41,673 bases of DNA. Origin: Phycisphaerae bacterium (GTDB lineage Bacteria; Planctomycetota; Phycisphaerae; Phycisphaerales; Phycisphaeraceae). Positions 27,425 through 29,794 of this stretch are shown in pieces. The DNA is taken from NCBI GenBank assembly GCA_030432595.1, contig JAUIGU010000034.1:1-41673 (forward strand). The letters run 5' to 3'. Below the pieces are notes generated by a model. The model searched no databases. It was not told where the DNA came from and saw only the letters and a program-made list of their open reading frames with translations. The position numbers were made by a program, and so were the translations under genes. Position 1 is the first letter of the stretch. Each line of letters opens with the position of its first letter.

Positions 27425-27580
27425 AACTTCATGTGGGTTGGCCAGTTAGCCTTTGGTGCTCCCCTAATGCATGAACTATGTTCATTTAAGGGCAGGGCAC
27501 GGCCGGCTCAACGACCGTCGCGTCGCCGCCGTCGCCCCTTCTGGCCTCCTCGGTCCAGCCGAACCGATACAGTGGAACCC

Positions 27581-28477
27581 ATGGTTCTCGGACCCGCCCG
27601 CATCCCGTCACTGAGGCGTTCTCGAAGTCCGTTGCGGCCTCTCCGCCCTCGAAAGGCCCGTTGGATCGCCCGGCTCGCCGTCTGCGCCGCCGTCGTGACC
27701 GTCCTGGTCGGCTGCGACTCGACGCCGTTCGCCAACAGCGACGACGATTCCCCGCTGCTGGTGGATCTGGCCCGCAACCTCGCCGGGCCCACGCCGCAGC
27801 AGGCCGCGCGCGAGGCTTTTGACCGCGAAGACCCCGACAAACGCCGCCGCGCCATCGCGCTGCTTTCTTCTGCCGAGTGGGGCGGCGAGCCCGCGTACCT
27901 CTCGGTCTACCGACTCATCCTCTCCGACCCCGACCCCACGGTCCGCGCCGCATGTGCCTCTGCGCTGGGCCGACACGGCACCCCCGACGACGCGCTACTG
28001 GTCGCCAACCTCCTCGCCGACGACCACGCGCCGCTCCGCTGGGAGGCCGCCAAGGCCCTGCGCGCCCTGCACCAGCCGCTCGTGACACCGAAGTTGATCG
28101 ACGGCCTGCTCCGCGACGAAAACGCCGACGTCCGCATGGCCGCCGCCGAGGCCTTGGGCCAGTACCCCCGCCGCGACGTCTTCGACGCCTTGGTCACCTC
28201 GCTCACCGACAGCGAGTTCGGCGTCGCCCACGCCGCGCGACGCTCGCTCACCACCCTCACCGGTGCCGACCTGGGCCCCGAGCCGGCCGACTGGCACCAA
28301 CTCGCCAACCAGAAGTCCGCCGAAGGCAACACGGCCCTCTTCACCAACGCCCGCCCCTACACCTACCGCCAATACGTCAAGCCCCCCGGGCTGTTTGAAA
28401 AAGCCCGGTTTTGGGAAGACCCCGAAGCCGAAGCCAACCAACAACCCGCCGGCCTCGAAGACGAACGCGAGTCGTGA
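27581..28477 (+). CDS. HEAT-repeat lipoprotein
   Basis: 298 residues. A strongly basic N-region leads to a hydrophobic core and lipobox LVGC (Cys at about 45), so it should be lipid-anchored. Residues about 80-225 hold four to five HEAT or PBS-lyase-type repeats (DPDPTVRAACASALGRHGTP, then DHAPLRWEAAKALRAL and ENADVRMAAAEALGQY), a scaffold for protein contacts. The C-terminus is Pro/Glu-rich. The start at 27581 is chosen because the frame upstream is Arg-rich and not family-like, though the N-region stays unusually long. It diverges from pstS. Function unknown. Confidence 0.75.
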   Translation: MVLGPARIPSLRRSRSPLRPLRPRKARWIARLAVCAAVVTVLVGCDSTPFANSDDDSPLLVDLARNLAGPTPQQAAREAFDREDPDKRRRAIALLSSAEWGGEPAYLSVYRLILSDPDPTVRAACASALGRHGTPDDALLVANLLADDHAPLRWEAAKALRALHQPLVTPKLIDGLLRDENADVRMAAAEALGQYPRRDVFDALVTSLTDSEFGVAHAARRSLTTLTGADLGPEPADWHQLANQKSAEGNTALFTNARPYTYRQYVKPPGLFEKARFWEDPEAEANQQPAGLEDERES

Positions 28478-28570
28478 TCCAATGAGGGATTTGTCATGCT
28501 GGGGTTGTGCGCAGGTTGTGAATGCTCGGCGCGAACGGCGTTGCAGTGCGGCTGAAAAAAACTCGTTGCG

Positions 28571-28597
28571 TCTGTGTAGTCTCTGTGCCTCTGTGGT
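28571..28597. repeat. Three nonamer-type repeats
   Basis: TCTGTGTAG, TCTCTGTGC, CTCTGTGGT: a 9-bp period built on CTCTGTG, followed by a T-rich tract. The left flank contains GAAAAAAAC. Similar CTCTGTG words are known from intergenic repeats of several bacterial groups. Confidence 0.65.
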
Positions 28598-28809
28598 TTT
28601 TCTTTCTGCGCAAGCAAACAGTTCTGCCTCCCGTGTTATCCCCTGGGCTTGAGTTTCCGTGGGCATGCCTGCAGATTGTCGCGCTGTTCCAGTTCGGCGA
28701 GGCCGTGTATGGAATAATGTTGCATATCTCTCATCGGTTGACCATCCGGTGACGAACGCCGACGGGGCATACGCCAAGGGAGTCCGTCCGAACGCGATGG
28801 CTCGCCGGG

Positions 28810-29165
28810 GTGGCTGATTGCGTGATCCGCAGACAGGTAGTCTGTTACATTTGATCAGACGCGCGAAAGAGATGCTGAAGTTGGGGGCCGCCTTCGCGTG
28901 GGATGAAAGTCCGACCGTGGTGAAGGTGGGATGTGAGTTAATGCCCGGAGATGGCTATCTCCGGGCTTTAGGGGGCACACGAAGTGCAGCACATCCTTCC
29001 GGCTCTTTGACAAGTGAAGCAGGAGCGTTGTCGCTCTACAAAAGCGTCGAGAGAAGGGAAGTAGCCTACGGATTCGTCCTCAAGGCTTGGGGGATAGTGT
29101 GTGCATCCGTCTCGATGCTGATACGCTATGAGTCAAACGGGAAGCGAGTAATCCAGCGATAACCT
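28810..29165 (+). ncRNA. Highly structured non-coding stretch, possible RNA or group II intron remnant
   Basis: Ordered perfect stems on the plus strand: CAGAC-AGGTA-GTCTG (28830-28844); GCCCGGAGAT-GGCT-ATCTCCGGGC (28943-28966); GCAC-ACGAA-GTGC (28975-28987); GAGCG-TTGT-CGCTC (29023-29036). The second and third are enclosed by GGATGTG (28929-28935) pairing with CACATCC (28990-28996), making a three-way junction. Base composition is less GC-rich than the genes. The GATGAAAGTCCGACC stretch and overall look recall domain I of bacterial group II introns. No domain V, no reverse transcriptase and no clear 5' GTGYG were found, so the identity is open. The plus strand is assumed. Confidence 0.4.
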
Positions 29166-29197
29166 TGAAGTGTTAGTAAAGATCCTTGTTGAAAGAA

Positions 29198-29222
29198 AAA
29201 GGAGGCCCGTCGGGCCTCCTTA
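29198..29222 (-). terminator. Terminator of tRNA-Ser
   Basis: A 10-bp stem AAGGAGGCCC / GGGCCTCCTT with a 3-base loop (29200-29222), followed on the minus strand by TTTCTTTC. It lies 8 bases beyond the tRNA 3' end and is a strong Rho-independent signal. Confidence 0.9.
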
Positions 29223-29229
29223 ACGCAAG

Positions 29230-29316
29230 CGGAGAGGGTGGGATTCGAACCCACGGTGACGCGGACGCCACACCGGTTTTCGAAACCGGCTCCTTCAGCC
29301 ACTCGGACACCTCTCC
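29230..29316 (-). tRNA. tRNA-Ser(CGA)
   Basis: 87 bases. The acceptor stem is GGAGAGG / CCTCTCC with discriminator G. The anticodon loop is TTCGAAA in an ACCGG/CCGGT stem, so the anticodon is CGA, reading UCG. A long variable arm, as in all tRNA-Ser, and the T-loop GGTTCGAATCC are present. No CCA is encoded. It decodes serine UCG, a common codon in this GC-rich genome. Confidence 0.95.
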
Positions 29317-29491
29317 GTGGTTTGGGCCACCGAGCCGGGCATGATAACACGGACATCGGCCCGTTTGTCCCCCGCGCTGAAGTCGGCGGGGCGCGCTCTT
29401 CGATGACCCCGTGCCGGGCCGGCTTGGTTCCGGGCGTGGGTGGGGGTATTGTTTTGTCGGACGCGCCTCCGGGATTGCCGATACGCCCACC

Positions 29492-29794
29492 ATGGACGAA
29501 GCCACCCCCACTCCTCTGACCGTCGGCCATCGCGTGACCGTGGTGCAGCAGGTGCAGCACAAGGGCTGGACGAATCGGCTGACCGGCACGGTCCGCGGCT
29601 TCGAGCAGCGCAAGACCGGGTCGTGGTTCGCTCACGCCAAGGACGACCGGCTGTGGCTGGACCGGCTGGTCCTCGAACTCGACGACGGCGAGATCGTCAC
29701 GGTCAACCTCGACCAGTACAGCCGCGTCGAACCGGCGGACACGGGATCGGACAGCGTGGCGCCGCCGGACGACCCGGGTACGGAAGCGGCCTGA
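29492..29794 (+). CDS. Small conserved-looking protein of unknown function
   Basis: 100 residues, soluble, probably beta-rich. The central part reads VGHRVTVVQQVQHKGWTNRL, then GTVRGFEQRKTGSWFAHAKD and DRLWLDRLVLELDDGEIVTV, with an SH3-like or small-barrel pattern. The tail is acidic. The start at 29492 (MDEATPTPLTVGHRV) is chosen because the upstream extension overlaps unrelated sequence. Its stop overlaps the start of the rhodanese gene by one base (TGATG), so the two are co-translated. No function is assigned. Confidence 0.68.
   Translation: MDEATPTPLTVGHRVTVVQQVQHKGWTNRLTGTVRGFEQRKTGSWFAHAKDDRLWLDRLVLELDDGEIVTVNLDQYSRVEPADTGSDSVAPPDDPGTEAA

Follow-up and report, generated by a model that had tools for sequence, protein, structure and literature searches.

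A dispersed family of structured, boxA-bearing elements of about 600 nt in one bacterial genus

Bacteria use the boxA signal to read through their rRNA genes, and boxA antitermination is usually associated with those genes. Among the large ornate bacterial RNAs, OLE, GOLLD, ROOL, and HEARO have a dense branched structure and no known function. REP/BIME and MITE repeats are dispersed, intergenic, and often located before a convergent gene, as is the element described here. Unlike these repeats, the element is about 600 nt long, has a covarying multi-branch structure and alternative arms, and is present as old, divergent copies. With rRNA leaders, the site of boxA/Nus antitermination (NusB-S10-NusA-NusG-SuhB), it shares the same boxA-like sequence and a long untranslated structured sequence, but no rRNA follows it, its boxA is at the 3' end, and it occurs in tens of copies. 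Activity of boxA outside rRNA is described in PMC5725501, and PMC7862264, citing eLife 2020 e58182, places boxA upstream of CRISPR arrays. As with the boxA of CRISPR leaders, that of the element would lie on a noncoding transcript other than rRNA; in contrast, no repeat-spacer array was found in positions 28400-29700 of the window, and the structured part of the element is upstream of boxA. Compared with OLE, GOLLD, ROOL, and HEARO (see also PMC12286853), the element is alike in size and branching but differs in matching nothing in Rfam, in numbering dozens of copies per genome, in its boxA, and in a range that here covers one genus. Group II introns and circularly permuted group II RNAs (PMC8637638) are likewise large, multi-domain, and dispersed, whereas no domain V, reverse transcriptase (RT), or Rfam match was found in the element.

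The window, the whole 41,673-nt stretch of DNA that was analyzed, is contig 55 of a host genome of 4.39 Mb in 73 contigs. A first-pass annotation made from the sequence had flagged positions 28810-29165, between a HEAT-repeat gene on the 5' side (27431-28477, + strand) and a convergent tRNA-Ser(CGA) gene (29229-29316, - strand), as a large structured noncoding region. The structured region is real, but those borders were wrong: the homologous element runs from about 28508 to 29090 on the + strand. The flagged interval is its 3' part, about 300 nt short on the 5' side and with about 75 nt too much flank. The terminator-like hairpin of the convergent tRNA-Ser gene (29199..29221, - strand) lies outside the element. 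Lower GC content and the lack of a convincing protein had been noticed correctly: the GC fraction is 0.545 in 28810-29165 versus 0.674 in the whole window, and the 114-amino-acid open reading frame (ORF) at 28818-29162 has no Pfam match up to an E value of 1. A search of 28400-29400 found no sigma-70-like promoter, and a repeat search of 28400-29700 found no repeat-spacer (CRISPR) array.

When positions 28780-29230 were used as a blastn query against the host genome, 87 matches were returned; these count the query and one self-palindrome, and a copy can contribute several of them. These resolve into dispersed copies over which similarity spans approximately 600 to 700 nt. The proposed search for further copies revealed a dispersed family of about 45 to 60 host copies of a ~600-nt element. 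With up to three mismatches, the 3' motif CTTTGACAAGTGAAGCAGG occurs at 47 places in the host compared with 3 for the reversed control. For a degenerate boxA-type 3' motif the counts are 45 in the host and 39 in the sister species (G001, of the same genus), and for the core strand GAGTCC[GC][AG]TCCGAA they are 59 and 32, respectively, with controls at 0 for both; the window copy, being one base short, is not among the 59. All copy counts are approximate because, in both assemblies, contigs frequently terminate at copies, which would be expected of repeats. None of 398 other genomes of the order had more than two occurrences of the boxA-type motif or more than one of the core strand. An exact scan of one genome per species, which spanned 84,980 species and contigs of at least 3 kb and possibly left out the host's own records, retrieved 32 stretches, all from the sister record. 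Blastn searches of relatives returned nothing strong beyond the sister species, and there was no match in phages or plasmids (both queried with one copy of the A type defined below) or in viral contigs (exact pattern). The distribution is limited: among the genomes searched, the family was found in one genus. We found no paper on it among the open-access papers searched.

Host copies of the A type were assigned at 31 places, the window included, by the exact motif, and not all of these were read over their full length. The host B/C type is shorter (15 seen), and the sister species carries a D type, with 33 distinct copies among 42 loci. The A, B/C, and D types have in common the TGCGCA at the 5' similarity edge, the GAGTCC[GC][AG]TCCGAA strand, and the boxA end, with boxA reading TTTCACAAG in B copies and TTTGACATG in C copies. 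The helix that includes the core strand is GGUCGG/CCGAUC in A, GGUGGG/CCCAUC in B, and GGCGGG/CCCGUC in D; as judged from the sequences, these differences are compensatory around a constant G-U pair. A covariance model, built for the B core only, gave no significant recognition of A or D copies (best E value, 3.3). One common fold for all subfamilies is therefore unproven, and their common ancestry rests on the TGCGCA edge, the core strand, the boxA at the end, and the arrangement of the parts. The family looks modular, with five combinations of arms among 19 A copies and with 3' hairpin types common, by eye, to some A and some B copies. The B copies also contain a conserved TANAAT hexamer, for which no -35 partner was seen at the usual distance.

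In the window copy, all parts of the element are on the + strand. The 5' segment (28508..28660), delimited by multiple alignments of full A copies, begins with its edge TGCGCA (28508-28513), and a second TGCGCA lies at 28607-28612; the exact 5' end was taken from the point where similarity stops. This segment holds the stretch gcagtgcggctgaaaa and a low-complexity ctctgtgcctctgtggttt stretch. The latter lies at 28572-28605 and is also built into the 5' part of other A copies. Core domain 1 (28678..28801), based on the RNAalifold consensus and pair counts on the A alignment (A3, described below), has a closing helix (28678-28681/28798-28801) with nested helices inside. It contains the strand GAGTCCGTCCGAACGCG at 28780-28796, which corresponds to the family form GAGTCC[GC][AG]TCCGAA less one base. 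The junction recognized in the first-pass annotation is core domain 2 (28802..28923), in which a long helix (28802-28812/28913-28923) surrounds a variable arm and inner stems (A3 helix 6; 98.1% of cells paired). Domain 3 (28925..29000) takes alternative forms between copies; the window form is a hairpin at 28939-28970, an inverted repeat with 14-nt arms (28939-28952/28957-28970). This palindromic hairpin (CCCGGAGAT...ATCTCCGGG) recurs alone at seven other host loci (L060-L066), where it resembles a shared terminator. The boxA-like site CTCTTTGACAAGTGAA follows at 29003..29018, with the exact family motif CTTTGACAAGTGAAGCAGG at 29005-29023. Next is a small hairpin (29022..29037; A3 helix 19; 100% of cells paired), which reads GGAGCG/CGCTCT in the window and GGGGCG/CGCTCC in most A copies, the changes in the window keeping the pairs. 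A purine-rich strand and then a 3' hairpin occupy 29049..29087 (A3 helices 17 and 20). The hairpin is AGAAGCCCACG...CGTGGGCTTC in most A copies and is decayed in the window copy.

Base pairs were counted on RNAalifold structures derived from the same alignments that were scored. Alignment A3 comprised 19 of the 31 exact-motif A places, for the most part copies whose 5' side is complete; L054, which is A-like but divergent and lacks the exact motif, was left out, and L111, which has no motif, was unused. Alignment A2 held 14 B/C copies (the fifteenth, in L210, was added to A4), and A1 held 12 of the 33 distinct sister copies. In A3, 112 pairs had 97.4% of cells paired, and 18 pairs (92 cells) were changed on both sides; none of 500 shuffles scored as high. 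The values for A2 were 105 pairs and 98.0% of cells, with double changes in 9 pairs (2/500 shuffles as high) and 20 cells (0/500). Those for A1 were 84 pairs and 97.3%, with double changes in 9 pairs and 18 cells (0/500 for each). The covariation score was reached by 0 of 500 shuffles in all three alignments. When partners were slid by one to three columns, pairing fell to 37 to 50% (38.9 to 49.4% in A3). Compensatory changes thus exceed both shuffled and slid controls in A, B/C, and D. Counting against structure, the measure of further pair types was no better than in shuffles (A3, 500/500; A2, 150/500). As a check for coding, pairwise gap lengths among 18 A copies showed no bias toward multiples of three (215/967; the pairs are nonindependent).

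Consensus energies on the + and - strands of the three alignments were -97.0/-84.2, -143.3/-128.7, and -110.4/-72.4 kcal/mol, so that the + strand was the stronger in all. Reverse-strand consensus folds nevertheless pair nearly as fully (97 to 98% of cells, with 8 to 12 doubly changed pairs), and the + strand is therefore favored rather than proven. The dense pairing reported for the window corresponds to a branched + strand fold but is weak evidence from the window copy alone, for which the z score was -2.29 on the + strand (3/100 shuffles folded as well) and -4.99 on the - strand (0/100). Because the - strand folds relatively better, the single-sequence fold of the window copy does not show a + strand RNA. 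Among seven intact copies, one had a better z score on the - strand, one was about equal, and one D copy had no excess stability on the + strand (z score, -0.24). The region is real as a structured element on account of its copies in the host genome and the covariation in aligned copies.

At the 3' end of the element, TCTTTGACAAGTGAA or a one-base variant of it matches the boxA-like site of the host 16S leader (GTTCTTTGACAAGTGAACAG). The host's own 16S boxA 22-mer agrees with the A, B, C, and D consensus motifs at 16, 18, 18, and 16 positions, respectively; elsewhere in 46 elements, the best agreement is 15 and the mean is 11.9. Contiguous bases in common with the 16S boxA number 15 in A and 16 in D. 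The name boxA rests on the position in the 16S leader and on the published consensus type (PMC5725501). The single 16S match in the host genome lies on another contig (C11:43933-45443), and none follows an element. In A copies, the CUCUUU of boxA is pairable with the purine-rich strand just 5' of the 3' hairpin (helix 17), so boxA could be open only during RNA synthesis.

The proposed covariance search of the window against Rfam retrieved the tRNA alone at gathering scores. Ten further loci (six family elements and four other boxA loci) gave no matches to Rfam 15 at gathering scores. Relaxed matches were all below gathering and comprised Plastid-psbl-rps4 (over the tRNA), sX4, MH_s15, ncS16, sR32, and mascRNA-menRNA. 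With 45 to 60 copies, compensatory changes, and no Rfam match, the suggestion that the region represents a conserved RNA of an unknown class gained support.

Flanks were compared between 46 host copies and 42 sister loci (33 distinct). One site is clearly shared (L053/L139) and one is nearby (L042/L147), which is a lower bound, with >1200 nt of the 5' side in 15 of the 42 sister loci and mostly 3' flanks compared. L053 is of the A type and L139 of the D type, and they lie beside the same 86%-identical gene; the difference in type suggests sequence conversion or replacement in place. In the sister, separate contigs carry the HEAT gene (C190) and the tRNA-Ser gene (C260), and gene order there differs from that in the window. 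Directly beside the sister tRNA-Ser gene lies another gene and no element. Past the sister HEAT gene, 546 nt from the stop codon and one ORF further on, is a D-type element that is cut by the contig end (L179, C190, minus strand, first 174-201 bases) and is 95 to 97% identical to two other D copies. It is a possible counterpart of the window copy; the common ancestor may already have had an element near the HEAT gene, and each species now carries a different type. The sister locus matching 4.9 kb around host copy L044 has no element. Gene order differed at both loci checked, and no clean empty site was found. Double-hairpin REP-like repeats (AGCCGG...CCGGACCGG...CCGGCT) were also seen upstream of the element in L103, L105, L110, and L210.

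We lean slightly toward the explanation that the region belongs to an unclassified, dispersed, multi-copy family of ~600-nt structured RNA genes that, in a Phycisphaera-like genus, use boxA to recruit Nus factors. An intact copy would be a + strand unit with the TGCGCA edge, a branched core with exchanged arm forms, and boxA near the 3' end, followed by a small hairpin, to which most host A copies add a terminator-like one. NusB-S10 and other Nus factors would bind boxA during RNA synthesis, as in rRNA leaders, accompany RNA polymerase across the untranslated 3' end with its many hairpins, and aid folding. The 3' hairpin would then end transcription and leave a stable structured RNA. Copies would be spread and homogenized by mobility or gene conversion. 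Such a role for boxA would not be the standard one, since boxA lies near the 3' end of the element, whereas rRNA and CRISPR leaders carry it upstream of the protected part.

The main rival, which is not exclusive of this RNA gene explanation, is a nonautonomous mobile element, MITE-like or moved in trans by an RT or a transposase. Its structure would serve mobility, and boxA would be a passenger or would help make a full-length RNA intermediate. Dozens of dispersed copies, the few sites in common with the sister (and no element at the sister L044 locus), the group II-type RT adjoining one B copy, and Y1 transposase-like matches in the host genome (L212, L214, and L215, the last below the curated cutoff) all fit this account. 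We nonetheless consider it unlikely. The count of shared sites is a lower bound, and the D-type element downstream of the sister HEAT gene too implies that part of the sites may be old. By eye, neither terminal inverted repeats nor target duplications were seen, and the closest listed pairs are about 92% identical, which gives no sign of recent copies. The sister carries a comparable number of copies with no group II-type RT found, and the structure has been kept through compensatory change among old copies. Highly improbable is the idea ventured in the first-pass annotation that the element is what remains of the 5' part of a group II intron after loss of the RT. The large multi-domain structure would suit such an origin, as would the one group II-type RT in the host genome. 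That enzyme, the sole host RT (L210:1261-2580), has a GIIM domain and scores 189 bits for TIGR04416 against a cutoff of 300, and its stop codon is followed, after about 190 nt, by a B-type copy. As a mobilizer of the family it was considered and rejected, being one RT beside one copy, with none of the group II type found in the sister, where a retron-like RT alone was found despite the similar copy number. No RT lies inside the copies; the sole RVT_1 match of the genome is outside one. Rfam recognized no intron in the window, at six other copy loci (gathering scores), or at the RT locus, and for 28500-29500 no intron family appeared at E values up to 10. No domain V was found in the element, which has boxA and a hairpin at the end where an intron would have domains V and VI.

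A cis-acting antitermination or attenuation leader, in which boxA-modified RNA polymerase reads into downstream sequence, would agree with the location of boxA directly 5' of hairpins and with the promoter-like sequences seen by eye about 100 nt before some boxA loci of G535 and G547, two further genomes considered below. This explanation appears quite improbable, as a crude caller based on GC3 places the nearest downstream ORF of at least 120 amino acids on the opposite strand for 27 of 42 copies, which often leaves no gene to serve, and the window copy itself faces a convergent tRNA gene. Compatible with the RNA gene explanation, and in our estimate rather probable, is that the window copy is a pseudogene relic without present function, whatever the family does. 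Its mean identity to the other 18 A copies is 66.8% (76.9 to 85.8% for the others), the lowest of the 19, and its broken pairs (19/96) are the most (0 to 11 in the others). Its GC fraction is 0.57 versus 0.66 to 0.67 in three A copies measured, and its 3' hairpin is decayed. On the other hand, boxA and the hairpin of boxA are intact, and the substitutions in the window break somewhat fewer pairs than random placement does (19 versus a mean of 23.8; 3.1% of 5,000 placements as low). The window copy is a diverged, probably decaying member of the family and is probably losing function.

It is possible, and we propose it tentatively, that the family, which matched no known RNA family in the searches made, constitutes a new large structured RNA class with about 45 to 60 dispersed copies per genome that recombine in modules, that its synthesis uses the antitermination machinery of rRNA, and that it is the best-defined case of a wider Phycisphaerae habit of placing boxA on non-rRNA noncoding loci. 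A genus with one 16S gene found and dozens of boxA-bearing structured RNA-like loci would offer a natural system for asking what boxA does on long noncoding transcripts, and a little-studied phylum would gain an abundant class of RNA. Should the elements prove mobile instead, they would represent an unusual structured-RNA repeat.

The wider genome group is called Phycisphaerae here, after the class to which Phycisphaera belongs. A looser boxA pattern (up to two mismatches) was searched for in 248 genomes of the class and occurred 9 times in G422, 11 in G535, 7 in G547, 6 in G519, and 6 in G524; controls in these five genomes were 0, and single matches may be chance. Twenty of these loci were read in G422, G535, G524, and G547. 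One of them is the G535 16S leader, which carries TTCTTTGACAAGTGAACAGGG. In G535, this leader locus alone adjoins the 16S match, and in G422 the one 16S match is on a different contig; the assemblies of G524 and G547 have no 16S match, so their boxA loci could include rRNA leaders. BoxA-led noncoding loci may be common in Phycisphaerae. In G535 and G547, the promoter-like sequences mentioned above precede some of the loci. Many of the loci resemble one another within a genome, and the sequence downstream is noncoding and partly repetitive. Compared with host and sister copies, the 20 loci gave six short matches of 21 to 49 nt, one of which is boxA itself.
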